A stretch of DNA of 47,908 nucleotides from a virus, in the IMG/VR virus record IMGVR_UViG_3300037635_000677, positions 1-47,908 of that record, one strand, 5' to 3'. How positions within the stretch are numbered: position 1 is the stretch's first letter; every line of letters begins with the position of its first letter. The notes below the pieces were generated by a model that was not told where the DNA came from, made no database searches, and was given only the letters and a program-made list of their open reading frames with translations. Positions 1 to 32,630 of this stretch are shown in pieces. Made by a program: the position numbers and the translations under genes.

Positions 1-2
1 TC

Positions 3-593
3 ACAGAAATACGTGATTTGATAGACAACAAATTAAACAAATTAACACAAATAGCAATGTTGCGTAGTGAAGACTTGATTAGAGCAAGTAACAGTGGCGA
101 ACAAATTGAAATATTTGACGATAAACTTGCCGCACTTATAAGAAAGAAAGCAACAAACTTAGAAAATGCAGAAAGCAAACTGTTTGATATCTATTTTGAT
201 TGGACTAACCAACAAAAACCAGAAGATTTCCGTGTATCATACAGTAGACAATATAACAAAAGAGCATTAGAAACAGAATTAAAAGAAATAGATGTCTTAA
301 TTAACGTTGTAAACAAATATGATGAAATGTTTGGTAGTGATATAGAAGCACCAAGTTACAACACTGAAGCAGAAGCAATAGCAGAAGCAAATAGATTAGG
401 AGGAACTGGCGCACACGAGCACGTTCAAGCAGATGGCACTAGTATATACATGCCATTTGAAACACACGAAGAATATGAGGCGGCTATCGGACAGACAGCC
501 TCGGAACCAGATTTTAGAAATAATATGCGTGACAAGATACGCATGAGACTTGAAGAGTTGATGGAAAGTACATCAACTAACAAAGGCTTGTAA
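3..593 (+). CDS. Portal protein, C-terminal part (copy A, truncated by window start)
   Basis: This is the C-terminal third of the portal, the dodecameric ring at the capsid vertex through which terminase pumps DNA. The reading frame is open from the window edge (codon phase begins at base 3), so the 5' part is missing. It aligns end to end with the last ~195 residues of the complete portal at 26604-28292 at roughly 93% identity by eye, with one Gly/Asn insertion difference after EMFG. The region is charged and helical and ends in LMESTSTNKGL. The first 32 bases are identical to copy B, and the first difference is at base 33. The scaffold gene follows after 42 nt. Identity as a portal rests on copy B and on gene order. 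Confidence 0.88.
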   Translation, partial: TEIRDLIDNKLNKLTQIAMLRSEDLIRASNSGEQIEIFDDKLAALIRKKATNLENAESKLFDIYFDWTNQQKPEDFRVSYSRQYNKRALETELKEIDVLINVVNKYDEMFGSDIEAPSYNTEAEAIAEANRLGGTGAHEHVQADGTSIYMPFETHEEYEAAIGQTASEPDFRNNMRDKIRMRLEELMESTSTNKGL

Positions 594-705
594 TATCTTG
601 ATAATACCCCAACTCAGGGACAATAGGAGAATAAAATGTCGGAAGGACAAAATATAGATACGCCAGTTGCAGGCGAAACCGTGCAACCAGTTAATACTGA
701 TACTG
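594..705 (+). promoter_or_regulatory. Unusually conserved leader and 5' end of the scaffold gene
   Basis: From the portal stop to about codon 24 of the scaffold gene, copies A and B differ only by a small indel/shift next to the Shine-Dalgarno (GGAGAATAAAATG versus GGAGATAAAATATG) and one substitution. The flanking coding DNA carries frequent synonymous changes. The untranslated part contains a possible short CCC/GGG hairpin and a strong GGAG site. Such conservation suggests an RNA element, for example translational control of scaffold. Recent recombination across this patch is the alternative. Confidence 0.35.
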
Positions 706-1487
706 AGGTACAATCACAAGACCAGAAATCAGATGTAGTAGATACACCTTCATCACCTAAGGTTGAGATGCGTGATTCGAAAATGTATGTAGACGGAGTT
801 AGAGTTTACTCTAGAGACGACACAAACAGAATTGCCGCCAATGCCAAAAAGGATGTTGAAAGTAGAATACTAAATGATCTAGATGTTGATAGCATTGATC
901 AAGTTAAACAAGTAGTCACAGAACTGCGAAATGTTTCTCCAGAGAGTAATTCTCTAGACGTTGAAGCACTGAGAAGTGCTGTTCAAAAGAGGGAAGCAAC
1001 AGTTGAAGAACTGAAAGCAGAACTCAGCAAAGTCAGAACAGACTATGCTGTAAAGGAGCATGTATCCAGTTTAAAGGATAATATGCCTACTAGTTGGAAG
1101 CCAGAGCAAAAAGATGCTGTGGTAGACTTGATGAAAGCCAGAAACATGCTGTTAGTAGAAGGCGAGACGTTCGCAATTAAAAACGGTGATGATTATTTAA
1201 CAGTAGATGGTGAAAAACCTGACTACAAGACTGCTGTAGAAGTAGTTGGTAAAAGTCTAGGCTTACCATTTGCCAAGAAAGGTGTAGATACATTTGACGC
1301 AGATAGAACACCGCAAGATGTTTCTAGTAATTCAGGAGTAAACGAAAGTAGACTCAAGACAGATAGAGAATATAATGCGGCTTATGTTCAAGTGCGAAAT
1401 GCAAATAAAACATTGCCAAGAGACAAAGTCACAGACGCAATGGTTAAAAAACATATGGAGAGAACAAGAAGTTTCCGTTCTCTTTAG
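636..1487 (+). CDS. Scaffold / capsid assembly protein (copy A)
   Basis: This 283-aa acidic, coiled-coil-rich protein lies between portal and major capsid, the standard place for a scaffold that templates procapsid assembly and is then expelled. The N-terminus (about 1-45) is low-complexity and Q/T/E-rich. Residues ~95-135 (EALRSAVQKREATVEELKAE) are a clear coiled coil. The basic C-terminus ending KKHMERTRSFRSL resembles the coat-binding tail of scaffold proteins. The start has a good GGAG site. No separate prohead protease is visible nearby. Copy B is about 92% identical. Function comes from position, composition and architecture, not from a catalytic motif. Confidence 0.8.
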   Translation: MSEGQNIDTPVAGETVQPVNTDTEVQSQDQKSDVVDTPSSPKVEMRDSKMYVDGVRVYSRDDTNRIAANAKKDVESRILNDLDVDSIDQVKQVVTELRNVSPESNSLDVEALRSAVQKREATVEELKAELSKVRTDYAVKEHVSSLKDNMPTSWKPEQKDAVVDLMKARNMLLVEGETFAIKNGDDYLTVDGEKPDYKTAVEVVGKSLGLPFAKKGVDTFDADRTPQDVSSNSGVNESRLKTDREYNAAYVQVRNANKTLPRDKVTDAMVKKHMERTRSFRSL

Positions 1488-1522
1488 TATAACATAAACA
1501 TAATTAAATATAGGAGAAAATT

Positions 1523-2491
1523 ATGGCAATAGGAACAAGTACAGTTGCAGAGTTATATTCTAATGTGGTTGCAGATTTGATTCCATACTTCGATAACGCA
1601 GTATTACTACCAAATCCGGCAATCCTAACTCACAACTATAATTTAGAAGGATCAATTGGTAACACCATGCAGATTCCTTTGGGTAATTACTGGCCAGCAG
1701 GTAATGTTGGTGTAAGTGATAGTGCAGACCTTATCAACGCAGGATTCGATTTCGATCCTAGTTCAGTAAGTTTAGCAGTAACTAAAAAAGGAGCAGGTTC
1801 AACTGTTTCTGAAGAAGCATTAGAAGATGGTGGCCTTGCTACTGTATCTAACGCAATCGTAACAAGACTTTCAGGTGCTATTGCTAAAGCAACAGACACA
1901 GAAGGTTTTAGAGTTGCTTTATCAGGTGCCACAACGGCAATGACAGATATGGCTAACATCAACGTACCTAACGATGGTTTTGCTAACACAGCCTTAACTA
2001 ACGCAGACTTAGGTATTGTTATGTCAGCAGAAGGTCTAGCATACGCAAGTAAAAGAGAACCAACAGTTAAAATGTTTAACGACGTTCAATACGACAACCA
2101 CCAAATGGTTGCTACAGTAAGAAACGGTTTTGCTCAATTAAGAACAGATCCAGTTGTAGCCGCAGGTCAACAAAACTTCATCAGATGTTTTGCTACTGAA
2201 AGTGGTGTAGGTTCTTCAAATGCTAACTTAGACACAATTTCAAAATCAGTTGCTAACCTAAGAGGCGATAATGCGCCTACAACAGGTGGATTCTACTGGG
2301 CATTTATTAACTCAGCACAAGAATTAGCATTAGCAAGTGAACTAAATGGTGTTGGAGCATCAAGTGGATCAATTGGTTCAGTTGCTCAAGACTTAGCAAA
2401 TGATGCCTTGTTACAAGGTTTAATCACACAGGCAATTGGTTGCCAATTTGTTAGAAGTAATAACCTTCCAGAAAGTTTAGCATCTGCGTAA
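1523..2491 (+). CDS. Major capsid protein (copy A)
   Basis: This 322-aa protein is expected to form the icosahedral shell. It directly follows the scaffold, has a strong TAGGAG site 7 nt before ATG, and has balanced composition with many Ala/Gly/Asn/Thr residues. Recognisable stretches include the early AELYSNVVADLIPYF, the GAGSTVSEEALEDGG region around residues 92-106, and a C-terminal SVAQDLANDALLQGL. These look like major capsid proteins of marine tailed phages that lack a cleaved N-terminal delta domain. Copy B (29226-30191) is about 83% identical, with clustered differences at residues ~55-85. That segment may be a surface or insertion loop. Confidence 0.87.
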   Translation: MAIGTSTVAELYSNVVADLIPYFDNAVLLPNPAILTHNYNLEGSIGNTMQIPLGNYWPAGNVGVSDSADLINAGFDFDPSSVSLAVTKKGAGSTVSEEALEDGGLATVSNAIVTRLSGAIAKATDTEGFRVALSGATTAMTDMANINVPNDGFANTALTNADLGIVMSAEGLAYASKREPTVKMFNDVQYDNHQMVATVRNGFAQLRTDPVVAAGQQNFIRCFATESGVGSSNANLDTISKSVANLRGDNAPTTGGFYWAFINSAQELALASELNGVGASSGSIGSVAQDLANDALLQGLITQAIGCQFVRSNNLPESLASA

Positions 2492-2506
2492 GATAGGAGT
2501 TAAACT

Positions 2507-3070
2507 ATGGCATTTATAACAGATGGAGCAGGAAACGTAATTAGTTACGCAGAAGCATTAGATATAAAAGACAAAGATCAACGTATCTTTGAGGCCAATG
2601 AGGTCAACTTTACTGATGTTCCTGACACACCTGGAAGCCTAGACAATTACTTAGAGGATTTGACACAGAAAGCAACTAACAGAATCAATGAAAAGATTCG
2701 TGCTAGTGCTAGATGGAGAGAATACCTCGGATATGCTGGTGGAGGGTATGATTCAATTGATGATATACCCCCTATCAACATGAACTTGATTGTAGGTAGA
2801 AAATCAGATATTACAGATATGTGTGCTTATTACACATTGAAAGAATATTTGCTACCTAAGATTGCAGACTTTGGTAACCCAGAATCAGCAGAAGTACAAA
2901 AGATTGAATACTATTCAGGTAAGTTCGATGATTTATTCAGAGAACTTATGGATATACTTGATTGGTATGATGCTGATAATGATGGTTCTGTACAGACCAA
3001 TGAAAAAATGGTTAGATTCAGACCTAACAGGCGTACTAGAGGCAGAAGCAATATAAGTAGAGTAAGATAA
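2507..3070 (+). CDS. Head-tail connector / head completion protein (copy A)
   Basis: This 187-aa protein sits immediately after the capsid gene, where adaptor proteins that bind beneath the portal are encoded. The centre (residues ~45-125) is helical with an acidic C-terminal half (LMDILDWYDADNDGS), and the last 20 residues are very basic (RFRPNRRTRGRSNISRVR), suggesting contact with DNA or with the portal channel. It starts after a TAGGAG site, and its stop overlaps the next ATG by one base (TAATG). Copy B is about 96% identical. The exact family (gp6-like adaptor) is inferred from position and helical character. Confidence 0.7.
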   Translation: MAFITDGAGNVISYAEALDIKDKDQRIFEANEVNFTDVPDTPGSLDNYLEDLTQKATNRINEKIRASARWREYLGYAGGGYDSIDDIPPINMNLIVGRKSDITDMCAYYTLKEYLLPKIADFGNPESAEVQKIEYYSGKFDDLFRELMDILDWYDADNDGSVQTNEKMVRFRPNRRTRGRSNISRVR

Positions 3071-3462
3071 TGGCTTTCAGAGATACACTGATCGCAGACC
3101 TAACAACTACTCTAAGTGGCAGTAATGTGTCAGTTAGTGCAGAATTACCCTTTGTACAAAGTGGTGATGTTAGATTGGATATAAAGAATAAAAAAACTTT
3201 GTATATTGATCAGGACAACGTTAGCAAAGAGGTGTTGTATAACACACTCGATGCTGATGTGTATCAAACAGTAACTACAGTGAAAGGATATCTAACTGTA
3301 GATGCCAAAAATCAACCTGGTGACATAGATAGTGTTACAAACAGTATCCGTGAAGCAAGGTTGGGAATAACTGGTCCATACTCAAAAGAGTGTGAGACCT
3401 CAACCGAAATCACAACAGATTATATAACATATGAGTTTGATTTCGAGTTTATAACTGTATAA
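3070..3462 (+). CDS. Tail completion / minor tail protein (copy A)
   Basis: This 130-aa protein lies between connector and tail tube, the place of gpU/gp10-type tail-terminator proteins. The sequence starts MAFRDTLIADLTTTLSGS and is followed by predicted beta strands (VSVSAELPF, LYIDQDNVSK, YEFDFEFITV at the C-terminus), consistent with a small alpha/beta terminator fold. Translation is coupled to the upstream gene by TAATG overlap. Copy B is about 90% identical. The name is a positional inference. Confidence 0.6.
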   Translation: MAFRDTLIADLTTTLSGSNVSVSAELPFVQSGDVRLDIKNKKTLYIDQDNVSKEVLYNTLDADVYQTVTTVKGYLTVDAKNQPGDIDSVTNSIREARLGITGPYSKECETSTEITTDYITYEFDFEFITV

Positions 3463-3478
3463 CAAATAGGAGAAACCG

Positions 3479-3964
3479 ATGGCAGTAATTAACGTAACAG
3501 CAGGTTCACAAGCAATTTTAACATTAGGATCAAACGCCGCATTGGCAGTACCAGGTGCTACCGATAGTTTGAGCATTCCTTTTTTACAAGACCTAACTAT
3601 TTCATCAGCACCCGGAACTGTTAGATATTCTACATTGGATTCTAGTAGTTCTAGTGCTTTCACAACTGTGAATGAGAATAGTGTTTCTTGTAACATGTTA
3701 GTGGATGACGTAGTGATGTTTGGAGATTCAGGTCATGCTGTAAATGGTGTAAAAACCAATGGTTTATTTGAAACTTCAAAAGCAAAAACAGAGATATTCT
3801 TCTCAGTTAGTTTTGAAGGAACAGGTACAACCGGCGATACATATTGGACAGGTAAAGGGTTTATCGGTGGATTAGCCCCTAACGCAAGTATCGACCAAGC
3901 AGTATGGATTTCCCCAATGGAAATCATTGTGAATGGTGAACTTACTAAGACAGACGAATCGTAA
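3479..3964 (+). CDS. Major tail (tube) protein (copy A)
   Basis: This 161-aa, beta-rich, Gly/Ser/Thr-rich protein has the size and composition of tail-tube subunits. It sits between the tail completion gene and the assembly chaperones. A strong AATAGGAG site precedes the ATG. The motif GTVRYSTLDSSSSSAFTTV (residues ~44-62) is invariant between copies. The C-terminal strand IDQAVWISPMEIIVNGELTK is typical of tube proteins. Copy B is about 65% identical. A stem-loop follows immediately (3981-4000) and may help keep this gene's expression above that of the downstream genes. Confidence 0.78.
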   Translation: MAVINVTAGSQAILTLGSNAALAVPGATDSLSIPFLQDLTISSAPGTVRYSTLDSSSSSAFTTVNENSVSCNMLVDDVVMFGDSGHAVNGVKTNGLFETSKAKTEIFFSVSFEGTGTTGDTYWTGKGFIGGLAPNASIDQAVWISPMEIIVNGELTKTDES

Positions 3965-3978
3965 ATGATTTAAAATAT

Positions 3979-4002
3979 AGCACCCTCAATATTGGGGGTG
4001 TT
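3979..4002 (+). terminator. Stem-loop after the tail-tube gene (attenuator-like, copy A)
   Basis: CACCCTCAA (3981-3989) pairs with TTGGGGGTG (3992-4000), with one G-U pair. No clean U-run follows (TTATATCAT), so it is more likely a partial terminator or an mRNA processing/stability element than a full terminator. The hairpin is kept in copy B (31680-31703) with changed loop bases, which supports function. It separates an abundant product (tube) from low-copy chaperone and tape-measure genes. Confidence 0.55.
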
Positions 4003-4020
4003 ATATCATAGGAGTAAAAC

Positions 4021-4260
4021 ATGGAACACAAATTTTTAAGATTATTCAAAGATGGAGTGTGGACAGGCCGAGAAGATCGCATGATTCGAATTGACGGCGA
4101 AGAACACGACATGGATGTATATGCTAAAAAACATGGTATAGTATTACCAGATAGCAAGGGCGGAAAAAAGCCTAAAAAAGAAATAAATATAGATGAACAG
4201 GAAGAAAGTTATGGAGATATGGAAGAAAAGATCGACGAAGGAGATTCTTCAGTCGATTGA
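4021..4260 (+). CDS. Small acidic-tailed tail-module protein (copy A)
   Basis: This 79-aa protein of unknown function has an N-terminal EHKFLRLFKDGVWTGREDR segment, a lysine patch (GGKKPKKEINI, residues ~50-60) and a very acidic end. It starts after GGAG. Copy B is about 70% identical, with a strictly kept KHGIVLPDSKG-like core. The last ~50 nt overlap the start of the next gene in another frame. Its position just before the chaperones suggests a tail-assembly role. I recognise no family. Confidence 0.75.
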   Translation: MEHKFLRLFKDGVWTGREDRMIRIDGEEHDMDVYAKKHGIVLPDSKGGKKPKKEINIDEQEESYGDMEEKIDEGDSSVD

Positions 4261-4387
4261 GCCAGAAATAGCAAAGGCTCAAAACGAAATTAAATGTGCT
4301 GAGGGTGATGTACGCAAAGCACAAAGTAGATTAGCATTCATACTAAGTGCTATTCATGATTTAAAAACTAGAGATATAAAGGAGTAA
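4211..4387 (+). CDS. Nested-start coiled-coil small protein (copy A)
   Basis: This 58-aa ORF starts at MEIW inside the 3' end of the preceding gene (50-nt overlap, different frame). An upstream in-frame ATG at 4193 also exists, but copy B supports 4211 because only MEIW is shared. It is helical and charged with AKAQNEI/VRKAQSRL heptads, so a short coiled coil is likely. It ends in KE-stop, where AAGGAGTAA doubles as the Shine-Dalgarno of the chaperone gene. Preservation of frame, length and pattern in copy B (31912-32088, about 60% identity) argues that it is real. Function unknown. Confidence 0.72.
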   Translation: MEIWKKRSTKEILQSIEPEIAKAQNEIKCAEGDVRKAQSRLAFILSAIHDLKTRDIKE

Positions 4388-4391
4388 AGAT

Positions 4392-4688
4392 ATGAAACTA
4401 TCAGAACTAGCAAAAAAACCACAGTTAGTAAAACTAACAATCAGCAAACAAGAAATAGTAGAAAAGTACGGTGACGAACTTGAATTCTACATGTATGACA
4501 GACAGTCATTAGATGTTTTTTCAAAATTAGCAAACGCAACTACAGATAACGTTGGAGAGTACATGAGTGTACTTTCAGATATCATTTTAAAAGAAGATGG
4601 TTCACCTGTAATGGATGGTGAAATGGTGTTGCCTATTGATGTTATGACTGAAGCAATGAGCCTGATTGGCGCAAAACTGGGAAAGTAA
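4392..4688 (+). CDS. Tail assembly chaperone, lambda gpG-like (copy A)
   Basis: This 98-aa protein precedes the tape-measure region. In lambda-like phages gpG and the frameshifted gpG-T bind tape measure and tube subunits and are absent from the mature virion. Evidence: correct position, size and acidic helical character, and the canonical slippery heptamer GGGAAAG at the last two codons. Copy B is only ~40% identical, so the chaperone has diverged together with its tape measure partner. The start has an AAGGAG site embedded in the upstream stop. Confidence 0.85.
   Translation: MKLSELAKKPQLVKLTISKQEIVEKYGDELEFYMYDRQSLDVFSKLANATTDNVGEYMSVLSDIILKEDGSPVMDGEMVLPIDVMTEAMSLIGAKLGK
4679..4685 (+). 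promoter_or_regulatory. Programmed -1 ribosomal frameshift site GGGAAAG (copy A)
   Basis: The heptamer is in the correct phase (G GGA AAG) and directly precedes the zero-frame stop TAA at 4686. It is the same slippery sequence as at lambda G/T. Slipping back one base opens a stop-free frame from 4685 to 4957. Copy B has the identical heptamer in the identical context at 32379-32385. Confidence 0.87.
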
Positions 4689-4957
4689 CCAGCCACGTCA
4701 TAGACGAAAGTGCTGATACTGGTTTGATACTAACACTAGATCAAATCAGTAAAAGATACGGTGTTTTGCCAAGTGAACTATTATGTAAAGGTGATAGTTT
4801 TGATTTAATGGTCTTTGATGTGGCAGTAAATTGGGAAATGATCCAAAATGCTAAAGCAAACAAAAAGCCAGTAGATCCAAAACTTGCTCGACGTCAATTT
4901 GGCGACGACATGTTTAAAAAGGCAGAAGAATATTATGGACATAAAGATAAAAGTTAA
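4685..4957 (+). CDS. Frameshift extension of the tail chaperone (gpT-like part of gpG-T, copy A)
   Basis: This is read only after a -1 shift at 4679-4685, giving a fusion of ~188 aa (98 + 90). The -1 frame begins VTSHVIDESADTGLILTLDQ and has no stop up to 4957. The recognisable C-terminal core is LDQISKRYGVLPSELL...EEYYGHKDKS. A TTG at 4724 could be mistaken for an independent start but lacks a Shine-Dalgarno. In lambda the T domain recruits tube subunits to tape measure and G. Copy B keeps the arrangement (32385-32630). Confidence 0.82.
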   Translation, partial: VTSHVIDESADTGLILTLDQISKRYGVLPSELLCKGDSFDLMVFDVAVNWEMIQNAKANKKPVDPKLARRQFGDDMFKKAEEYYGHKDKS

Positions 4958-5237
4958 TGCTAAAGGTGTAACAGACATGTTTAATGATCTGTTAGACATG
5001 CCTGATGACATGATGGATGATGGCCATAAAGAAATGGTCAAATTAACACCTATCAAAAGTGGTAACGCAAGACGTAGAACAGTTCATAATGTAAGTGACA
5101 GAATAAATTCTAAGTACCCTTATGCCGCAAGATTAGATGAAGGGTGGAGCAAACAAGCACCCGATGGTTTTACAGAACCAACTATAGATCACATGGATGA
5201 TTTTGTAGAAAAATATGTTAGAAGGATACAGAGATAA
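4935..5237 (+). CDS. HK97 gp10-like tail/neck protein (copy A)
   Basis: This 100-aa protein overlaps the end of the chaperone extension by 23 nt and ends one base into the tape-measure ATG. The start at MDIKIKV is chosen because copy B starts MAKIKV at the equivalent place. The motif LTPIKSGNARRRT (residues ~37-49) and the later YAARLDEGWSKQAPDG are characteristic of HK97 gp10/minor-capsid-like neck proteins (pattern: P...G.LR.S... then Y...E.G). Copy B carries a 17-residue insertion. Its place after the chaperones rather than before the tube is unusual. Confidence 0.72.
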   Translation: MDIKIKVNAKGVTDMFNDLLDMPDDMMDDGHKEMVKLTPIKSGNARRRTVHNVSDRINSKYPYAARLDEGWSKQAPDGFTEPTIDHMDDFVEKYVRRIQR

Positions 5238-7507
5238 TGGCAAAAAGAATAGAAGTAGTACTACAACTTAGAGATAGAAACTTTAATCGTGGCATAAGAC
5301 AAGCAGTTGCCAATCTCAACAGATTAAAATCAGCAGTAGCAAGTACAAGTGCTACAGTAGGTGTATTAGGAGGTGCTGGTGCTGGTGGACTAGGTGGACT
5401 AGGCGCAGGATTAGCCGGTATTGGTGCCGGTATAGGTGCGGCATCAACCACAATACAAAGTAGTACAGAAAATATAACACAAAACATCACAACCATGAGT
5501 GATGCAGCCAAAAAGGTATTCGATGATTTAGGCGATGGCGAAAACATGATGAAAAAAGTCTTAAGTGAAGACTTTAGAGAAAATGTAAAGAAAGCCAAAA
5601 ATGAAATGAGCAACCTTGAAACACAAATGGAAGGTAATGCTCGTACTACAAAAGAAACAAGTGGTGGTTTCTTAAAATTTATAAGTATTGCGGCTTTAGT
5701 AGCCGCCGCAGTAACAGCCGTTACAGTAGCATTTAAAACACTTACAAGTGCTATAAGAACAAGTGCTGAATTCGAAAGAGTAGAAATAACATTAGCAAAC
5801 TTAACAGGTAGTGCTGAAAAAGGTGCTCGAGCATTAGAAGTTATAACACAAAAAGCCACAGAATTACCATTTGCTTTCTCTGAATTAGCAAGTGCTTCAC
5901 CTACCCTACTTACTGTAAGTGCTAACTTAGAAGAATTTAGAGATAACATACAGTTAGCCGCAGATATTGCCGCACAGTTTAACATACCATTTGAAACAGC
6001 AGTAAGTGGTTTACAAAGAGCCTTTAGTGCTGGTGCTAGTGCCGCCGATGTATTTAGAGAAAGAGGTGTATTGGCTGCCGCAGGATTCACAGCAGGTGTA
6101 AGTGTAAGTGTTGATGAAACAATAACAAAATTCAGAGAGTTTGGTACAGAAATTGCAGGTGCAAGTAATCAATTAAACAAAAGTTTAGGTGGTGCGGCAT
6201 CACAGGCTGGAGATGCCTTAACATTATTCAATAAAGAACTTGGTGATGCTATAAAGCCAGAACTTACCACATTCTTATTGACAATAACAAATTTATACAG
6301 ACAAAACAAAGCAGATATCGACGCATTAGCAAAAAGCATAGGCGAAGGTATTGTAGAAGCATTTATAAACTTTACTAGAACAGTAGCAGTATTCATTGAT
6401 ATAGTTAAACCATTAGCAAATCTATTTGGCACTATAGCAGGCGGAGCCATTAATTTAGCAGGTGGCTTAGATAAACTAGTCATTGCCGCAGTGGCAGCCG
6501 CCGCCGCAGTTAAGGCTATTGACGCCGCAAACAAATTAGCAATCGCCAGTGGTACAGTATTACAAGGTGTTACTGGTGTAGGTTTAGTTAAAGTTACAGC
6601 AGGTATTACAGCCGCAGGCGTGGCCCTTTTAGCCGCAAATAAATTACTTGAAGACAGTATGGCAGATCAAGGAGACACTGGTTTCTTTGATACATTGGCT
6701 AGTGTAGATGGATTCATTGAAAGTTTAAGAGAAGGTGCCGCAGGCCTGCGTACAGAAGCAGATGCTATAGCACCAGCACTAGAGCCATTAAATGAAATCA
6801 CAGTAGACATTGCCAAAAATGCTACTACAACAACTGATGCTATAGAAGATACAAGAACAGCAATACAGAAGTTTAGAGATGATCTCGATGCTATAAGTCA
6901 AATCAGTGGTGCAGAATTCGAAGCATTCTTGTTAAGACTAGAAGAACTATACAAAACAGGTGCTATTGGTATACAAGAATACATAAGACTAAAACGTGAA
7001 CTGGATGAAATATTTGGTGAGAATGAAGGCTTAAACAATTTCTTAGATACACTAGGTACTGCACAAGTTGCCTTAAGTGAAGACTTAGCAACTGCTTTCT
7101 TAGAAGGTCAAAAGGCTGGAGATGCCTTTAAAAACTTCTTTAAGAAATTAATTACACAAATTATAGCAGACATCATAAGACTGCAAATTATACAACCTAT
7201 ACTAGGAGCATTATTAGGTCCATTTGGTTATACATTTAGCACTGGCGGTAGTATTGTTCCTAAACAAACAGGTGGACCAGTTATGCCAGGTGGCACATAC
7301 TTAGTTGGTGAAAAGGGCCCCGAGTTGCTTCATATGGGAGGTGCCGCAGGCACAATAACGCCAAACAGTCAAATGGGTGGTGGTCAAGTAACATACAACA
7401 TAAACGCCGTTGACGCACCTAGTTTCCAAGCCTTAGTAGCAAGTGATCCAGGATTTATATATGCTGTAACACAGGCAGGTGCTAGAACTGTACCAGGGAG
7501 TAGATAA
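5237..7507 (+). CDS. Tape measure protein (copy A, 756 aa)
   Basis: This large helical Ala/Thr-rich protein should run through the tail lumen and set tail length (about 1.5 A per residue is the usual rule, so roughly 110 nm). The N-terminal ~130 residues hold a Gly/Ala-rich stretch and coiled coil. A hydrophobic segment follows near residues 145-168 (FISIAALVAAAVTAVTVAF). Next is the conserved tape-measure domain with AEFERVEITLANLTGSAEKG and FAFSELASASP. A further Ala-rich hydrophobic region lies around 395-475. The C-terminal ~90 residues (GGPVMPGGTYLVGEKGPEL ... QAGARTVPGSR) are the only part clearly shared with copy B. Confidence 0.92.
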   Translation: MAKRIEVVLQLRDRNFNRGIRQAVANLNRLKSAVASTSATVGVLGGAGAGGLGGLGAGLAGIGAGIGAASTTIQSSTENITQNITTMSDAAKKVFDDLGDGENMMKKVLSEDFRENVKKAKNEMSNLETQMEGNARTTKETSGGFLKFISIAALVAAAVTAVTVAFKTLTSAIRTSAEFERVEITLANLTGSAEKGARALEVITQKATELPFAFSELASASPTLLTVSANLEEFRDNIQLAADIAAQFNIPFETAVSGLQRAFSAGASAADVFRERGVLAAAGFTAGVSVSVDETITKFREFGTEIAGASNQLNKSLGGAASQAGDALTLFNKELGDAIKPELTTFLLTITNLYRQNKADIDALAKSIGEGIVEAFINFTRTVAVFIDIVKPLANLFGTIAGGAINLAGGLDKLVIAAVAAAAAVKAIDAANKLAIASGTVLQGVTGVGLVKVTAGITAAGVALLAANKLLEDSMADQGDTGFFDTLASVDGFIESLREGAAGLRTEADAIAPALEPLNEITVDIAKNATTTTDAIEDTRTAIQKFRDDLDAISQISGAEFEAFLLRLEELYKTGAIGIQEYIRLKRELDEIFGENEGLNNFLDTLGTAQVALSEDLATAFLEGQKAGDAFKNFFKKLITQIIADIIRLQIIQPILGALLGPFGYTFSTGGSIVPKQTGGPVMPGGTYLVGEKGPELLHMGGAAGTITPNSQMGGGQVTYNINAVDAPSFQALVASDPGFIYAVTQAGARTVPGSR

Positions 7508-8151
7508 TGAGTTTTCAAACAATTATAGATAACGCAACATTCATATCAGTAGATAAACGTAAAACCACAGCAATGAGTGTTAGTAGAAGTGGACACATAA
7601 AAACAGCAGAACGCCAACCCAGTGTGTATAAATTCACAGTAGGTAGTGTTCCTGGATTGAAATATTCAGAAAATAGAGGTGTGTTAGAAGATATAGATAC
7701 TGCTGATAGAGTAACAGAAGCAAATATAAGTTTAGCAAATAACACAGGCATGAATTATATCACAGCATATCAAGGTGGTATAGATGGCGGTAGTATCACA
7801 ATGGTAGGAGGAGATGGTAAAGAATTATACATCAATGCCAGTGGTGCTAGTGGTAGTGGCACACTTTTTAAGAAAGGTGATTACTTACAACCACAAGGTA
7901 ACACAGGCACATATAGATATCCATATCAAGTAACCAGTGATGTATCATTTAGTACAGGTGCTAATGTAACTATACCAGTACATAGGCCTGTATTGAGCCA
8001 AGATGGTGTAAGTATAACAAGTGGAGGCGTAAGAAAAGGCACAGAAGTACGTTTTCATGTAAAAGCAATGAGTTGCCCAACATACAGCATTGTGCCACAT
8101 GATAGAATAGAATTTGCTGGTGATTTTGAATTCGTGGAGATTATAACTTAA
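7507..8151 (+). CDS. Distal tail / tail-tip protein (copy A)
   Basis: This 214-aa beta-rich protein follows directly after the tape measure with TAATG overlap, the position of distal tail or minor tail proteins that link tube and tip. N-terminal landmarks are SFQTIIDNATFISVDKRKTT and SVPGLKYSENRGV. The C-terminus ends in IEFAGDFEFVEIIT. Copy B is about 83% identical, with most change in residues ~85-115 (a likely exposed loop, with a 3-residue insertion in B). I recognise the context, not a named family. Confidence 0.68.
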   Translation: MSFQTIIDNATFISVDKRKTTAMSVSRSGHIKTAERQPSVYKFTVGSVPGLKYSENRGVLEDIDTADRVTEANISLANNTGMNYITAYQGGIDGGSITMVGGDGKELYINASGASGSGTLFKKGDYLQPQGNTGTYRYPYQVTSDVSFSTGANVTIPVHRPVLSQDGVSITSGGVRKGTEVRFHVKAMSCPTYSIVPHDRIEFAGDFEFVEIIT

Positions 8152-8819
8152 TGACAACAATTACAGAAGTACAAGGCACAAATATAGCACCAATAACACT
8201 TATTGATTTACAAATAGGTGCTAATGTATACTATATTTCAAGCAATTGGAAACCTGTAACTGTAGGTGGTAATGATTACACAGAATTAGGCAGTTTCTTG
8301 ACTGTGGGTCAAATATCAGATGATTTAAAATATGACAGTAGTGATCTAACACTAACACTAAGTGGTATACCCTCAGAACAAAATTATCTAAGTCAAATAC
8401 TAACAGAGCCTGTAAAAGGTGGTAATGTAACTATACAAAGAGCATTTGTAGATCCCAGTACACTAGCACTCACAGGCAATGAATACACAAGATTTAAAGG
8501 TGTTATAACCAATTTTAAAATAGACGAACAAGTAAATGTATTGAGTAAACAAATGGACTATGCTGTTACAGTCACACTAGCAAGTCAATTAACAGTACTC
8601 AGTAACAAAATAACAGGACAAAGAACAAATCCTGAAGATAGAAAAAGGCTATTCCCCGCAGACAGAAGTTTCAACCGTATACCCATACTGTACAATACCA
8701 GTTTCGACTTTGGTAAAGAATACAGTACATCAGGTGGATATGGTGGCGGAGGAGGCGGTGGCGGTGGCGGTGGTCGTGGCCGTGGAGGCAGTGGTGGCTA
8801 TAATCAACAACAAAGATAG
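8151..8819 (+). CDS. Tail-tip protein with poly-Gly/Arg C-terminus (DUF2163/GTA-gp13-like, copy A)
   Basis: This 222-aa protein is TAATG-coupled to the previous gene. The pattern YTRFKGVITNFKIDEQ plus a beta-rich N-terminal domain resembles DUF2163-type tail-tip proteins, which in gene transfer agents and siphoviruses precede the central tip protein. From residue ~193 the chain becomes almost pure Gly with RGR and RGG units and ends GYNQQQR. Both copies keep this tail. The C-terminal zinc-binding or peptidase domain sometimes found in the family is absent. Copy B is about 80% identical. Confidence 0.65.
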   Translation: MTTITEVQGTNIAPITLIDLQIGANVYYISSNWKPVTVGGNDYTELGSFLTVGQISDDLKYDSSDLTLTLSGIPSEQNYLSQILTEPVKGGNVTIQRAFVDPSTLALTGNEYTRFKGVITNFKIDEQVNVLSKQMDYAVTVTLASQLTVLSNKITGQRTNPEDRKRLFPADRSFNRIPILYNTSFDFGKEYSTSGGYGGGGGGGGGGGRGRGGSGGYNQQQR

Positions 8820-8840
8820 AGATTTAAAGGATGAAAAGAT

Positions 8841-9293
8841 ATGATAAAACAAGCAGAAGTAAAAGACTTTAAGAACATTAAGAAAATGTTTATAAATTTT
8901 GCCAATAGTGCGCCAGTAGGTTATCTACATAAGCCACAATACGATGATGATTATATTGATCAATTATTGTTTGGTATTTCAAAGACAGGAGTTTTACTGT
9001 ACGCAGAACATGAAGGTAAACCAGCAGGTTTCTTCATTGCGGCACCAGCCGCAGATGTTTGGCTACCACAAGTAAAACATGTGTTAAGAGAAATGGCATG
9101 GTGGGTTGAACCAGAACACAGAGATGGTACAATAGGTGGCAAATTATTCTTAAAATTTATAAGCATTGCTAAAGCAATGAAAGATGCTGGTAAGATACAA
9201 GGTTACACAATGACACTTATGGACAAGTCACCAGACATCAAGTTAGACAAGTATGGTTTTAGACCAATAGAAACAGTTTATTACGCAGAGTAG
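8841..9293 (+). CDS. GNAT-family N-acetyltransferase (copy A)
   Basis: This 150-aa protein is a typical single GNAT domain: beta strand GVLLYAEHEGKPAGFFIA (motif C/D region), WWVEPEHRDGTIGGKLF as the acetyl-CoA-binding motif A (R-x-G-x-x-G-G around residues 94-102) and YGFRPIETVYY at the C-terminus (motif B). It transfers an acetyl group from acetyl-CoA to an unknown amine. It lies inside the tail-tip module, between DUF2163-like and tip genes, and both alleles keep it (~75% identity). A tail-assembly accessory or tip-protein-modifying role is inference. Confidence 0.85.
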   Translation: MIKQAEVKDFKNIKKMFINFANSAPVGYLHKPQYDDDYIDQLLFGISKTGVLLYAEHEGKPAGFFIAAPAADVWLPQVKHVLREMAWWVEPEHRDGTIGGKLFLKFISIAKAMKDAGKIQGYTMTLMDKSPDIKLDKYGFRPIETVYYAE

Positions 9294-9309
9294 GAAGTAG
9301 GAGTATAAT

Positions 9310-11655
9310 ATGGCAGTATTTACAGCAATAGCAAGTGCGATAGTTGGAGCAATATCAGGTATTGGTTTTACAGCCGCACTAGCCGCCGCAGGTACATTCA
9401 CACTAACAGGTATGGCAATTGGTGTTATAGCCGCAGGCTTGGCCTTTGGTACTGCTAAATTAATGGGTGTGTTCGATGTTCCCGATATGGGACCAGACCC
9501 CGGGACTAAAATACAGGTGGCCCCGAGTACTGACAACAGGATAGGGGTTGCTTATGGCCGTAATTTCATGAGTGGTCCAATAACAGATGTTGCTATATCA
9601 AATCAAAACGAGACTATGCACTATTGTATCACATTAAGTGAATTTGTAGAAGGCGAAACATATACACTTAATCAGATCTTTTGGGGAGATAGAAAACTTA
9701 ACTTTTCAGGCGCAAATGTAATCAGTTACACAGATCCAAATGCCACAACCACAGAAGATTGGGCGAACAAAATCCGTATCAGAGTATATGCTGGTGATAC
9801 AACCAGTGCTAAACAGATATTTCCAACATCTGGTGCCGTAAATGCCACAACAATGATGCCACACTGGAATACATTTGGTACAAGTCATTACACTATGGAA
9901 GGATTAGTGTTTGTCATGATAGAATTAGACTATGATGCTGAAAATGGATTAGCAGGTCTAGGTTCAATGACGTTTGATCTTACAAACAGTATGCATAATC
10001 CTGGTGAAGTGTTATTTGATTATATGACTAACACTAGGTATGGTGCTGGATTAGCCAATGCTGACATTGATATAACCAGTATATTAGGCACAGCAAATAC
10101 ACAAATGAAAGGTTATTGCGATGAACAAATTACTTATACACCTAATACTGGTGGTAGTAGCACAATAGATCGATATCAAATAAATGGATATTTAAGTACA
10201 TACAACACTTGTATGGATAACATCGATGATATATGTAGAAACGCAGGCACATACTTTACATTTGATGGTAAACAGGGTAAATTCAAAGCAATACCTAACA
10301 GACCTTATAGTACAACTGAATTAAGTAACGCATTTCAATTAAATGATGATAATCTTATTGGTAAAATAGCAATTACAAGCACAGAATTATACAATACACT
10401 GAACAAAGTAACAGTATCGTTTGCTGATCAAAACAGAAAAGATCAAACAAATACAGTAGTAGTAGAAACACCAAGTGGCGATAGAAACACAGGTGAACCA
10501 GACAACAATTTAGAGTATAGATTACCATTAGTGAACAACAATATACACGCACAACAATTAGGTAATTTAGATCTCAATCAAAGTAGAAAAGGCATGGTAG
10601 TAACTACTGTAGGAGATTTCAGTTGTTTACAAATTGATGCTGGTGATGTTGTAAAACTCAGTAACAGTGATTATGGTTTTACTGACAAACTGTTTAGAGT
10701 CATGAAAAACAAAGAACTATTAGGTCAAGATGGTATGATATCTTGTGAATTACTATTGTTAGAGTATGACGCAAGTGTATACACAGAACCAACAGTAACA
10801 GAAAGTGAAGAAGAAGATGATCCTATTGATATACCTGTAATACCACCTATACCTCCAATTATACCTCCAATTGTGTTTAAAAACATAATCGCAAATGTGT
10901 CAAGCAAAAGTGTAACAGGCACCGGTACAAGTTGTGTGTGTACAGTATTTAAATCATTGCCAAATACATATACAACAGTATTTGTATCAAGTAGCACACC
11001 TGATTTTGTCATAGGCGATACAGTAACATTAAGTGGAGCCAACTTAGGAGGCATAGATACTATACATGATTGCACATTCACTGTTGATGCAGTCAGTAGT
11101 GGACTAATTACTAACCCAGTAGGAAACATATCAGGTACAGCACTTGTATATGATCCCGACAAATGGGGCGGACAAATTCCAACAGCACCGTTGGCCAACT
11201 TGGCAGTAGGCACACAGATCGAAGATCAACCAGCAGCCAACTTAGCATTCAGTAACACAGATGTTGTTAAAGATATATTTACACCTAGGGAACTAGACTT
11301 TAAATTAAGCCTAGATGGTTTAGAACCAGGAGACTACAGTTTTGTAGCAACTGGCACGCCAGTAGGAGCAATACCAGCCAGTGGTGTAGCAAACTTTAGT
11401 TTGAGAGCAAATGTTGTGCTTGAAGATGTACAAGGTGGCTTTACAGCAACAGAATTTGGTTCAACACTTAACAATAGTGCCGAAATACCTACTAACATGA
11501 TAGCAGTACAAAAATTAACTATACCTGCAGATTTAAGCACAGGTAATGTGGTATTGCGTGGTAAAAACACAATGGACACAAACAGTGGCGGACAAATAGG
11601 TTTTACTAATTTAAAATATGACTGGATAAGAATCAATAAAGGAGACATATTCTAA
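9310..11655 (+). CDS. Central tail tip protein, gpJ-like (copy A)
   Basis: This 781-aa protein begins with a hydrophobic Ala/Gly-rich segment (residues ~4-55) and then VAPSTDNRIGVAYGRNFMSGPITDV, typical of gpJ/phage-tail_3 tip proteins. The middle (YDAENGLAGLGSMTF, GEVLFDYMTNTRYGAGL, NTCMDNIDDICRNAG) matches the tip hub domains. A proline linker, DIPVIPPIPPIIPPIV (~residue 505-520), introduces a variable beta-rich C-terminal part. Copy B is ~82% identical before the linker, ~98% just after it, and identical from base 11099 on. A TAGGAG site precedes ATG. It probably contacts the receptor or anchors the fibre. Confidence 0.85.
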   Translation: MAVFTAIASAIVGAISGIGFTAALAAAGTFTLTGMAIGVIAAGLAFGTAKLMGVFDVPDMGPDPGTKIQVAPSTDNRIGVAYGRNFMSGPITDVAISNQNETMHYCITLSEFVEGETYTLNQIFWGDRKLNFSGANVISYTDPNATTTEDWANKIRIRVYAGDTTSAKQIFPTSGAVNATTMMPHWNTFGTSHYTMEGLVFVMIELDYDAENGLAGLGSMTFDLTNSMHNPGEVLFDYMTNTRYGAGLANADIDITSILGTANTQMKGYCDEQITYTPNTGGSSTIDRYQINGYLSTYNTCMDNIDDICRNAGTYFTFDGKQGKFKAIPNRPYSTTELSNAFQLNDDNLIGKIAITSTELYNTLNKVTVSFADQNRKDQTNTVVVETPSGDRNTGEPDNNLEYRLPLVNNNIHAQQLGNLDLNQSRKGMVVTTVGDFSCLQIDAGDVVKLSNSDYGFTDKLFRVMKNKELLGQDGMISCELLLLEYDASVYTEPTVTESEEEDDPIDIPVIPPIPPIIPPIVFKNIIANVSSKSVTGTGTSCVCTVFKSLPNTYTTVFVSSSTPDFVIGDTVTLSGANLGGIDTIHDCTFTVDAVSSGLITNPVGNISGTALVYDPDKWGGQIPTAPLANLAVGTQIEDQPAANLAFSNTDVVKDIFTPRELDFKLSLDGLEPGDYSFVATGTPVGAIPASGVANFSLRANVVLEDVQGGFTATEFGSTLNNSAEIPTNMIAVQKLTIPADLSTGNVVLRGKNTMDTNSGGQIGFTNLKYDWIRINKGDIF

Positions 11656-12056
11656 TGCAAAAAGTAATAATTTATAACAATATCACTGGGCATATTGAAC
11701 AAAACATCAAAATAGCAAGTACAAGTCTAGAAAAAATGTTGACTGGAAGAAGTCATTTGAGTAGTATGGAATATGATCTCAAAGGCAAAGTAGACGACTA
11801 TCAAATAAATGTTAGTGTAGATCCACATGTGGTAGAAGCAAAACCAGAGCCTACAATAGATGTATCAAAAGAAATAAGAATACAAAGACGCAACCTGTTA
11901 GCAGTAAGTGACTGGACTCAAGCACAAGATTCACCATTAAGTGACAGCAAAAAAGCAGAGTGGCAAACATATAGACAAGCACTTAGAGACATGCCTGATA
12001 CATACAGTTCAGAAACTGACATTGCAAACGTCATTTGGCCTACTAGACCAAGTTAA
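11655..12056 (+). CDS. Phage tail assembly chaperone-like protein (tail_APC type, copy A)
   Basis: This 133-aa protein overlaps the tip gene stop by one base. Its C-terminal half, IRIQRRNLLAVSDWTQ, DSPLSDSKKAEWQTYRQALR and the final VIWPTRPS, is the signature of small tail-fibre/tail assembly proteins (Phage_tail_APC pattern: RR.LLA..DWTQ...P......W..YRQ.LRD...). It is usually encoded next to the fibre and assists folding or attachment. The copy at 39007-39408 is identical. Confidence 0.82.
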   Translation: MQKVIIYNNITGHIEQNIKIASTSLEKMLTGRSHLSSMEYDLKGKVDDYQINVSVDPHVVEAKPEPTIDVSKEIRIQRRNLLAVSDWTQAQDSPLSDSKKAEWQTYRQALRDMPDTYSSETDIANVIWPTRPS

Positions 12057-12059
12057 TTC

Positions 12060-12067
12060 GATAAATA
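12060..12067 (+). promoter_or_regulatory. GATAAATA late-promoter-like motif before the fibre block (copy A)
   Basis: GATAAATA lies just after the tail_APC stop and 62 nt before the next ATG. It resembles the T4-family late promoter TATAAATA. The same octamer recurs upstream of the candidate sRNA, terS, terL and the portal. No -35 element is apparent. Confidence 0.5.
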
Positions 12068-12084
12068 TACTAGTAATAAAAATG

Positions 12085-12108
12085 GCTATATTGCCTCAGT
12101 GATATAGC
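12085..12108 (+). other. 5'-UTR stem-loop ahead of the fibre operon (copy A)
   Basis: GCTATAT (12085-12091) pairs with ATATAGC (12102-12108) around a 10-nt loop, 18 nt downstream of the GATAAATA motif and before the AGGAG site of the next gene. It may be an mRNA-stabilising leader hairpin. The same element is at 39437-39460. Confidence 0.45.
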
Positions 12109-12128
12109 AATACCCTTCAGGAGTAGTT

Positions 12129-12632
12129 ATGTCAGGTAGAGTTTTATCTTTTAAATCTTATATTGGCGGCGCAGACAACGTACAGATGTTGGAAATGTTT
12201 CCGTCAAGTCAAAGTCAATTCACATACGATTACGGTTTTGATGTATCAACGTATACATTCGATGCCGATTATCAAACCATAGTGGTTGACACATTAACAT
12301 ATGATCGTGTTTCAGGCGATCCTAATTTTACAGAGTCTAATGTAGTAGGCAGTTTTGGTAGTAACACCACTATAGATAGTGGTTTTATTGATACCACTAC
12401 AGCCGCAAGTGGAACTGTTAAATTCACAATACCAAGTCAACGGTACGCAGGTAATATCATACCTGATGCTAGAGCAAATGTACCTATTACAGTAGTAAGT
12501 TTTAAATGGACAGATCCTGCCGCAAATACAACAACATCGCATAGATGGGCAGTAATTGAAAGGTATGAACCTGACGTAACAATAGGCAATCCACAACTTA
12601 GCACAGGATTTACACCTATTCCAACATCCTAG
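12129..12632 (+). CDS. Fibre-associated structural protein, unknown (copy A)
   Basis: This 167-aa beta-rich protein (Thr/Ser/Val/Asp-rich, regular DYQTIVVDTLTYD and TVKFTIPSQRYAG strands) is the first gene after the GATAAATA promoter and hairpin, and it ends 8 nt before the giant fibre gene. It starts after an AGGAG site. I recognise no family. Position and composition suggest a fibre adaptor or tip-attachment protein. The copy at 39481-39984 is identical. Confidence 0.72.
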   Translation: MSGRVLSFKSYIGGADNVQMLEMFPSSQSQFTYDYGFDVSTYTFDADYQTIVVDTLTYDRVSGDPNFTESNVVGSFGSNTTIDSGFIDTTTAASGTVKFTIPSQRYAGNIIPDARANVPITVVSFKWTDPAANTTTSHRWAVIERYEPDVTIGNPQLSTGFTPIPTS

Positions 12633-12640
12633 GAGACTAA

Positions 12641-17821: not shown

Positions 17822-17830
17822 GAGTAGATG

Positions 17831-17974
17831 ATGAGTGAAATAACGCAAGAGCAGATAATTGAAGGTTTAATTGCAGAGGGTATTGACGAATTAACAGCAC
17901 AACAAGTAGTCAATGATGGATTGATAACAAATCCCACAGAAGCCAGAATTCTTATACATGAATTAAAAGGTTAA
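17831..17974 (+). CDS. 47-aa small protein after the fibre (copy A)
   Basis: This short ORF encodes 47 aa beginning MSEITQEQIIEGL. The ATG at 17831 is placed 6 nt after TAGGAG; an ATG at 17828 is too close. The sequence is a helical acidic mini-domain with repeated E-x-I-x-E-L-T-A and I-x-E-L-K patterns. It ends two bases before the next ATG. It may be a fibre chaperone or a small adaptor. I recognise no family. It is identical at 45183-45326. Confidence 0.7.
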   Translation: MSEITQEQIIEGLIAEGIDELTAQQVVNDGLITNPTEARILIHELKG

Positions 17975-17975
17975 C

Positions 17976-19121: not shown

Positions 19122-19303
19122 TGTACTACTGGTATAGAACAGAAACAGGAGAATATATAGGCGCAGGACCTGAAGCACCTACTGAAAGTGGTATATCAAG
19201 CACAGATCAAAGTCCACAAATAGGTCAATACTATGACTATGATACAGGATTTACAAAACAAGCATTCTGGACAGGCACAGAATGGAGATATGAGGACGTA
19301 TAA
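19121..19303 (+). CDS. 60-aa tail-region protein, unknown (copy A)
   Basis: A small Tyr/Trp/Gly-rich protein (starts MYYWYRTETGEYIG, ends WTGTEWRYEDV), coupled to both neighbours by TAATG one-base overlaps. The aromatic, Trp-ended pattern resembles small fibre-attachment or tail-module proteins. I do not recognise a family. It is identical at 46473-46655. Confidence 0.7.
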   Translation: MYYWYRTETGEYIGAGPEAPTESGISSTDQSPQIGQYYDYDTGFTKQAFWTGTEWRYEDV

Positions 19304-19626
19304 TGCCAGTAGCACCAAGTTCAGCAAAACAAACAGCCAGAAAAGCACTGGAAACACGCAAAACATTACCAATGAGTAAAAGAGCAGGCACAGCCGTAGG
19401 CTTAGCAAGAGCAAATCAAATTGCCAAAGGCGATAACATGACTCTTAGCACACTGAAAAGAATAAGCAGTTTCATAGCAAGACATGAACCTAATTATAAA
19501 AGGGCAAGACGTCAAGGTAAAACAATGGAAGACGGTGGTGTTATACTAGCAATGGCACTATGGGGTTATCCAGGAATAAAAAGTTGGGTAGATCAACAAA
19601 TAACTAAATTAGAAAAAGGAGAATAA
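19303..19626 (+). CDS. Conserved basic phage domain protein (copy A)
   Basis: This 107-aa basic protein has the pattern SAKQTARKALETRKTL ... GTAVGLARANQIAKGD ... LSTLKRISSFIARHE ... ALWGYPGIKSWVDQQ. The combination 'ARKALExR / GTxVGLxRAxxLA / TxKRxxSxxxRHE / WLxWG' recurs in many phage virion-associated proteins and polyproteins, and I know no assigned biochemistry for it. Translation is coupled by TAATG overlap. It is identical at 46655-46978. Its position after the adsorption genes suggests a virion or morphogenesis role. Confidence 0.75.
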   Translation: MPVAPSSAKQTARKALETRKTLPMSKRAGTAVGLARANQIAKGDNMTLSTLKRISSFIARHEPNYKRARRQGKTMEDGGVILAMALWGYPGIKSWVDQQITKLEKGE

Positions 19627-19627
19627 T

Positions 19628-19714
19628 ATGCCAGGACAAAGAGGCGGAATGAAAAAGAAAAAGAAAGGACAACGTGGTGGACCTAAGAAAGGCAAAGGTA
19701 GCAAAAGAGGATAG
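19628..19714 (+). CDS. 28-aa Lys/Arg/Gly-rich peptide (copy A)
   Basis: This tiny ORF encodes 28 aa starting MPGQRGGMKKKKKGQ, with about 12 basic residues and no acidic ones. A GGAG site lies at the end of the previous gene, with the ATG 6-7 nt later. The 3' 41 nt overlap the next ORF in another frame. It could be a real nucleic-acid-binding peptide or simply the leader that couples translation to the next gene. It is identical at 46980-47066. Confidence 0.5.
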   Translation: MPGQRGGMKKKKKGQRGGPKKGKGSKRG

Positions 19715-20112: not shown

Positions 20113-20113
20113 C

Positions 20114-20368: not shown

Positions 20369-20398
20369 CCACAAATACTGGTCTGCGTAAATATTTAC

Positions 20399-26546: not shown

Positions 26547-26558
26547 CATATATATTTT

Positions 26559-32091: not shown

Positions 32092-32388
32092 ATGAAATTA
32101 AAAGAACTCGCAACACAACCAAAACTAATCAAAGTATCTATAGACGACGAAACCTTACTAGAAAAGTACGGTGAAGCAGTAGACTTTTGGATGTATGATC
32201 GCATGCCATTAGATAGATACACAAAGTTAGCAGGCATAAAAACAGATGACTTCACAAGCATGATTGACTTAGTAAAAGAAATAGTACTTGATGAAGACGG
32301 CGTGCCAGTAATGGATGAAAAACATGTGTTGCCAACAGATTTATTAAATGCGGCTATGGTAAAAGTAGTCGACATTGTGGGAAAGTAG
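32092..32388 (+). CDS. Tail assembly chaperone, lambda gpG-like (copy B)
   Basis: 98 aa, same length as copy A (4392-4688) but only ~40% identical. Conserved anchors are MKL-ELA, EKYGE, MYDR-LD and DEDGVPVMDE. It ends VGK with the slippery GGGAAAG directly before the stop. Its divergence parallels that of the tape measure, its expected partner. Confidence 0.85.
   Translation: MKLKELATQPKLIKVSIDDETLLEKYGEAVDFWMYDRMPLDRYTKLAGIKTDDFTSMIDLVKEIVLDEDGVPVMDEKHVLPTDLLNAAMVKVVDIVGK
32379..32385 (+). promoter_or_regulatory. Programmed -1 frameshift site GGGAAAG (copy B)
   Basis: Identical heptamer and phase to copy A (G GGA AAG followed by TAG instead of TAA). The -1 frame is open from 32385 to 32630. 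Its preservation while the surrounding proteins drop to ~40% identity is strong evidence for function. Confidence 0.87.
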
Positions 32389-32630
32389 TAACCCAGAGAT
32401 ACACTGATAGAGACCCCATTTTTTCTATGATGTTAGTTATAGATACCATGGCACAAAAATATGGAATGCTACCTTACCAAGTGATAGAACAAGCCAATAC
32501 AGGAGATCTACAAATACATATAGCAGTAGAAAAGTATAGGCAAATAAAGAATAATCCTGATAGAGATTTAAATCAAGAATATTCACAAGAAGAGTTACAA
32601 GATATATGGCAAAAATCAAAGTCACAGTAG
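32385..32630 (+). CDS. Frameshift extension of the tail chaperone (gpT-like, copy B)
   Basis: The -1 frame reads VVTQRYTDRDPIFSMMLVID, then an LxIDTMAQKYGMLPYQVIE core similar to copy A's LTLDQISKRYGVLPSELL. The fusion would be ~179 aa (98 + 81). An ATG at 32427 exists but has no Shine-Dalgarno, so frameshift expression is preferred. The 3' end overlaps the gp10-like gene by 25 nt. Confidence 0.8.
   Translation, partial: VVTQRYTDRDPIFSMMLVIDTMAQKYGMLPYQVIEQANTGDLQIHIAVEKYRQIKNNPDRDLNQEYSQEELQDIWQKSKSQ

Follow-up and report, generated by a model that had tools for sequence, protein, structure and literature searches.

A stretch of viral DNA that carries two related genes, each ending on a candidate slippery heptamer directly followed by a stop codon, raises the question of what is encoded beyond that stop and how ribosomes would reach it. 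The window (i.e., the whole stretch analysed, 47,908 nt of an IMG/VR virus record) contains a siphophage-like gene set. The two genes, TAC-G or simply G, are continued in the -1 frame by an open extension, TAC-T or T (Table 1). Very probably, the pair encodes a tail assembly chaperone and uses programmed -1 ribosomal frameshifting as lambda G/GT does. The signal, the synonymous constraint on it, the coding character of the -1 frame before its first start, the absence of an early ribosome site for T, and the synteny are all computed here; that slippage occurs, how efficient it is, and what G and G-T do in tail assembly is what we infer.

In the proposed mechanism, most ribosomes would read CTG (or GTG)-GGA-AAG and then stop at TAA or TAG, releasing the short G protein. 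A minority would slip back one base on G_GGA_AAG, with the Gly- and Lys-tRNAs re-pairing on GGG and AAA, so that these ribosomes would bypass the stop and add a T domain of 90 or 81 amino acids to give G-T. By analogy with lambda, the tape measure protein would be coated by G, with the tail tube subunit brought in through the T part.

Table 1. Positions, in window coordinates, of the genes and signals discussed.
Feature	Position	Strand	Remarks
Major head protein gene	1523-2491		E 1.2e-5
Probable major tail protein gene	3479..3964	+	Named by position alone
TAC-G, allele 1	4392..4688	+	98-aa ORF, 0 frame; conserved family A1
Slippery heptamer G_GGA_AAG, allele 1	4679..4685	+	TAA (4686-4688) directly 3′
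TAC-T extension, allele 1	4685..4957	+	-1 frame, 90 codons (4685-4954) plus stop
Neck1/tail-completion-like gene	4935..5237	+	Separates T from the tape measure gene
Tape measure protein gene	5237..7507	+	PHROG 973, E 1.4e-8
Distal tail protein gene	7507-8151		E 3e-4
Acetyltransferase-like gene, two copies	8841-9293 and 36194-36646		PHROG 1249, E 9.7e-12 (first copy)
Tail fibre J-like protein gene	9310-11655		
Terminase gene	22121-23359		
Portal gene	26520-28292		
TAC-G, allele 2	32092..32388	+	98 aa
Slippery heptamer G_GGA_AAG, allele 2	32379..32385	+	TAG (32386-32388) directly 3′
TAC-T extension, allele 2	32385..32630	+	-1 frame, 81 codons (32385-32627) plus stop

The two alleles and their gene neighborhood

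With both strands of the window counted, GGGAAAG occurs exactly twice, each time on the + strand, where it closes a 98-aa ORF in phase as G_GGA_AAG. Shuffled sequences give an expectation of 2.92, and the count alone is thus not above chance; consequently, the evidence rests on the placement and the conservation of the heptamer. The in-phase placement at the stops of diverged homologous genes, together with its retention in relatives, is not a product of chance. The initial annotation had described both heptamers as abutting the stop and opening a -1 frame, in proteins about 40% identical, with extensions that could otherwise start only from poor TTG or ATG codons lacking a Shine-Dalgarno sequence, and these details hold: the 0-frame proteins are 44% identical, and the first -1-frame start is a TTG at extension codon 13 in allele 1 and an ATG at codon 14 in allele 2, neither of them with a Shine-Dalgarno sequence. 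Upstream, the -1 frame closes 36 nt (allele 1) and 69 nt (allele 2) before the last base of the heptamer.

The window itself is partly duplicated. An exact direct repeat of 9,458 bases (11099-20556 = 38451-47908) has its second copy reaching the window end, and a blastn comparison of the first copy with the second aligns 7375-20556 at 95.1% (the exact part counted in) and 1-4550 at 84.5%, and leaves 4551-7374 unaligned. The contig probably represents about 1.75 turns of a circular or permuted genome of ~27 kb, assembled through two strains, and the duplicated stretch could alternatively be read as a true tandem. Since the contig seems to be wrapped around a ~27-kb genome, the two chaperone alleles probably come from two strains. 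The earlier description of two diverged chaperones that both keep the heptamer is therefore retained as regards the heptamer, and revised as regards its bearers, which are probably not two genes of one phage.

Between the copies, amino acid identity falls to 19% (global) for T, which reaches 24% over 55 aa, to 38% for the Neck1-like protein, and to 32% for the tape measure protein; for the 13 remaining proteins in the comparison it is 64-100%. G, T, the Neck1-like gene and the tape measure gene (4392-7507 vs 32092-34848) thus appear as one diverged block with 19-44% amino acid identity and flanks of at least 64%, which suggests that the block may have been exchanged as a unit. The heptamer is kept in both copies despite the divergence of G and T.

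The neighborhood of the pair is that of a tail module: the chaperone genes lie upstream of the tape measure gene, with a single Neck1-like gene intervening. Synteny was followed by tblastn with the proteins of the first copy among 64 related loci, which are fragments in which some inner genes go undetected. G and the Neck1-like gene were found in all 64, T and the gene at 4193 in 62 each, the gene at 3479 in 58, the tape measure gene in 56, and the gene at 4021 in 50; for the genes detected, the order is identical in every one of the 64 loci, and no rearrangement was seen. The gene at 3479..3964 has neither a PHROGs nor a Pfam match. The Neck1-like ORF (4884-5237) matches PHROG 5 (E 1.7e-7) and PHROG 169 (E 4.1e-7), and its probable ATG at 4935 makes the gene overlap the end of T. 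For the tape measure gene, the Pfam match to TMP_3 falls under the curated cut-off. Two further features of the window may be mentioned: the acetyltransferase-like gene sits within the tail-tip module, at a place similar to that of an annotated N-acetyltransferase in phage DSL-LC06, and an ORF of 1726 aa (12641-17821) contains internal imperfect repeats (13094-14098 and 17336-17473) that are 74-81% identical.

Constraint on the heptamer and its surroundings

Scans of viral contigs supplied 105 related loci which, with the two window copies, make 107; the profile scan kept the best 80 of 390 relatives, so that conservation was measured on the closer ones. The gene is full length in 104 of the 107, and these were reduced to 66 representatives with no pair more than 95% identical. 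G_GGA_AAG is found in 94 of the 107 loci (56 representatives), G_GGA_AAA in 5 (3), G_GGA_AAC in 3 (2) and G_GGG_AAG in 5 (5). Base by base, positions 1-3 are invariably G and positions 5 and 6 invariably A; position 4 is a purine, and position 7 varies slightly. The tolerated changes are those that would keep re-pairing of the tRNAs possible.

Synonymous-site conservation around the heptamer, which the initial annotation had put forward as a check, was evaluated on the 66 representatives, and wobble choice is skewed at all three codons. The codon 5′ of the glycine ends in G in every representative (60 Leu, 4 Met, 2 Val); elsewhere in the G genes, 141 of 799 leucine codons do so. The site glycine is encoded by GGA in 61 cases, by GGG in 5, and by GGT or GGC in none, and the 268 glycine codons elsewhere comprise 209 GGT or GGC, 54 GGA and 5 GGG. 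The codon that follows is AAG (61), AAA (3) or AAC (2), which means that AAG serves for 61 of the 64 site lysines, vs 105 of 565 lysine codons elsewhere. The pattern also holds when only the 34 representatives with differences above 25% are counted.

This skew bears on the possibility that the heptamer merely reflects conservation of a Leu-Gly-Lys C-terminus in G, the -1 ORF being a chance occurrence or a relic. The glycine at the heptamer is indeed invariant and the lysine nearly so, and one locus has its -1 frame cut short; against this stands the choice among synonymous codons, which is skewed at each of the three positions. Moreover, the -1 frame from the heptamer spans 81-98 codons in 106 of the 107 loci and is conserved as protein, which makes the C-terminus explanation extremely improbable. 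The exceptional locus (L056) has a -1 frame of only 32 codons vs 84 in its close relative L055, as a result of a sequencing error or of a broken T.

A pairwise codon-identity profile along G was also tried as a marker of the site and was discarded, the heptamer not being singled out. The leucine column (14 of 29 identical) lies under the background of 0.686 and is inconspicuous because TTG and CTG interchange; the glycine (27/32) and lysine (29/32) columns lie above background, and several other columns are equally conserved. The skew at the site is thus visible in wobble choice and absent from the codon-identity profile.

A third reading, in which the frame would be changed by a stuttering RNA polymerase instead of by the ribosome, draws on the fact that some bacterial frame transitions do use transcriptional slippage. 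For a polymerase to slip, longer runs of A or T are required. At this site the runs are of just three or four bases and the G_GGR phase is kept, so that transcriptional slippage is hardly credible here.

The five G_GGG_AAG loci (L017, L047, L060, L086 and L091), all of them among the 66 representatives, break the strict X_XXY_YYZ rule. For four of them (L047, L060, L091 and L086), the nearest relatives of equal length have G_GGA_AAG or the AAA form, and for L017 the nearest two relatives also carry GGGGAAG, at 35-37% difference. Literature support for G_GGG as a shifty tetramer was considered and withdrawn, the signal being probably due to Shine-Dalgarno-driven initiation according to an excerpt of the source (PMC4066793). 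Among the matches listed in a search of CC-licensed PMC texts (titles and abstract starts), none reports the frameshift of this phage family or a GGGGAAG slippery site in phages.

The heptamer abuts the stop codon in 60 of the 66 representatives and lies 5 codons from it in 4 and 8 codons in 2. A tentative proposal, which we regard as rather unlikely in its full form, is that slippage at such a stop-abutting site would compete directly with termination, and that the recurrent G_GGG_AAG would be tolerated through re-pairing of the Lys-tRNA from AAG to GAA by means of a first-position U-G pair. If this were true, natural variation at the site would map the tRNA re-pairings that are tolerated, and the activity of release factors could set the ratio of G to G-T.

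Other candidate signals around the site were considered and set aside. A C follows the abutting stop in 57 of 60 cases, which resembles recoding of the RF2 type. This C is also the middle base of a threonine codon in the -1 frame, and a weak-termination context was rejected, the base being explicable by protein sequence. The threonine is kept at the corresponding place in four of the six representatives whose heptamer does not abut the stop (L086, L095, L097 and L105; not L019 or L021), and since this retention can explain the C, it is not claimed as a signal. A conserved downstream RNA stimulator fared no better. Single segments appeared promising, with a mean z of -1.10 at +4..+63 compared with -0.38 for a control further 3′ and -0.79 immediately 5′ of the site; in the sliding fold profile, however, the mean z is -0.89 at the site and -0.87, -1.14 and -0.97 at three other places, so that the site is undistinguished. 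A strong hairpin is present in allele 1 at 4717-4751, ~31 nt 3′ of the heptamer (z -4.8 for the segment that contains it), in a region that is unremarkable across relatives. An excerpt of a paper on P2-like phages describes such RNA structures as rare at phage frameshift sites (PMC3091744). As for a 5′ stimulator, a Shine-Dalgarno-like sequence lies within 20 nt in only 3 of the 66 representatives.

Coding and translation starts in the -1 frame

If T were reached by frameshifting, the stretch that runs from the heptamer to the first start of the -1 frame (ATG, GTG and TTG being scanned) would be expected to evolve as protein. Codons differing by one base were counted over this interval in 25 nearest-neighbour pairs, and the synonymous to nonsynonymous changes number 70:46 in the -1 frame, vs 18:77 (Fisher p 9e-10) and 12:91 (Fisher p 3e-14) in the remaining frames; a bootstrap over pairs places the difference in synonymous fraction at 0.27-0.54. 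The outcome is similar after removal of L106 (24 pairs; 63:46, with 17:70 and 11:85 in the other frames) and with 36 partly redundant pairs (78:56, with 35:79 and 13:118). The pre-start stretch thus evolves as coding sequence of the -1 frame, which argues that it is translated in that frame, although no ATG, GTG or TTG precedes it (L106 apart). Together, the wobble-base statistics and this substitution test offer a clean sequence-only argument for frameshifting.

The same result weighs on the alternative that T is a protein in its own right, arising by re-initiation or from an internal start after G, with the heptamer kept for some other reason, for example as a Shine-Dalgarno-like element. 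Such an origin would fit with the purine-rich character of the heptamer and with the first -1-frame starts lying at similar places: among 71 unique extensions, the first start is at codon 4 in one, at codon 11 in another, and at codons 13-42 in 68 (often at codon 15-17), and the 32-codon extension has none. The distances, however, are too large in 69 of the 71 for the heptamer to act as a Shine-Dalgarno sequence, and a separate T leaves unexplained the -1-frame protein constraint on the codons before the start. Besides, G starts are preceded by a Shine-Dalgarno-like site in 65 of 65 cases, vs 3 of 66 for extension starts within the first 30 codons, and these three (L005, L100 and L104) are all TTG codons at positions 27-28. 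One locus of the 107, L106, does carry an ATG 11 codons upstream of the heptamer and within the open -1 frame, again without a Shine-Dalgarno sequence. Homologues combining an altered heptamer with a ribosome site of their own for T, which the initial annotation had named as contrary evidence, were sought among the representatives: ten of the 66 have an altered heptamer, none of these has a Shine-Dalgarno-led start within the first 26 extension codons, and L005, with its TTG at codon 27, is the only one of the ten in which a Shine-Dalgarno-like sequence precedes a start in the first 30 codons; L106 also belongs to these ten. On this balance, a separately initiated T is very improbable.

Relation to known tail assembly chaperones

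Sequence comparison gives G and T no chaperone family, since neither protein has a meaningful Pfam or PHROG match. The best PHROG hit among 22 G members (E 0.02) is to a family without description, and the best Pfam matches (E 0.0016 and 0.005) are to unrelated families. Only chance-level matches were obtained in the search for solved relatives of G by a profile against PDB sequences, as well as by tblastn against named phages (best E 0.6 among the matches listed). AlphaFold models G with confidence (pLDDT 88.5) and T poorly (67.6). With Foldseek, the G model has no PDB match at E 0.001 or better, and its top match is 2OB9, the tail assembly chaperone of HK97, a weak one (E 0.029, TM 0.30-0.40 over its two chains). 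In VIA, 2OB9 is tied at the top with 3FGX, an uncharacterised Bacillus protein, at a weak Z of 4.8, followed by YqbN (3KLU) at 4.2. Against BFVD, the top match (E 5.2e-10) is to an uncharacterized phage protein and the second (E 2.2e-9) to an entry named tail assembly chaperone. The lambda-type frameshift of the initial annotation is accordingly carried by the wobble constraint, the -1 coding before the start, the missing early ribosome site and the gene order, and the match to a chaperone fold is weak.

The closest parallel is lambda G/GT, which has the same heptamer in the same phase, a short chaperone with a T extension in the -1 frame, and a location upstream of the tape measure gene. The label of lambda-type site applies to the heptamer and not to the geometry: in lambda the heptamer lies 5 codons before the stop and 144 codons follow the slip, whereas here it usually abuts the stop, the extension is shorter, and a Neck1-like gene separates T from the tape measure gene. 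In P2, TTTTTTG lies 6 codons before the stop. HK97, whose gp13 is extended by a -1 fusion and whose record annotates the -1 frameshift, provides the top structural match named above; nonetheless, 2OB9 is absent from the profile search of PDB sequences to E 10, and a scan for X_XXY_YYZ did not detect an in-phase heptamer at the HK97 site. Published work gives a context for these likenesses, as far as the excerpts of each source go: G_GG.A_AA.G is among the three most efficient motifs in E. coli when stimulators are present (PMC4066793), low-level G-T frameshifting is conserved widely among the long-tailed phages, with T4 as the exception (PMC5009743), and frameshifting of 6-7% was measured for two HK97-related tail chaperone genes of phages (PMC3711429).

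The mechanism is a well-known phage device and the present case is otherwise confirmatory; the placement of the heptamer against the stop and the repeated occurrence of GGGGAAG are modest variations on it. What is gained is a functional name for a gene pair to which neither Pfam nor PHROGs gives one here, and the recognition of the same arrangement, with its -1 half unannotated, in published records of Pelagibacter and freshwater phages. The Pelagibacter phages HTVC111P, HTVC112P and HTVC026P and the freshwater phage DSL-LC06 are relatives by tape measure similarity, and in all four the gene preceding that for the tape measure protein, annotated as tail assembly chaperone in DSL-LC06, has a slippery heptamer directly against its stop. 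They differ from the window in that the heptamer is A_AAA_AAG or A_AAA_AAC, and their -1 extensions have 56-61 aa, with no + strand gene annotated over them. None of the four appears in the best 30 of the 60 records returned by tblastn with the window G, records that belong to Bacteroides, Klebsiella, Acinetobacter and Vibrio phages. MED4-184 has a -1 extension of 61 aa without such a heptamer. Kolga gp7 ends in CTG GGG AAG AAG AAT TAG, with gp8 in the -1 frame having its own ATG, and an excerpt of the Kolga paper speculates about frameshifting in its tail genes (PMC8163748). Finally, in HTVC111P (L108, 3669-3851) and HTVC112P (L111, 2163-2342), a minus-strand hypothetical gene (gp45 and gp41, respectively) is annotated over the -1 extension after A_AAA_AAG, and these two gene calls are probably annotation errors.
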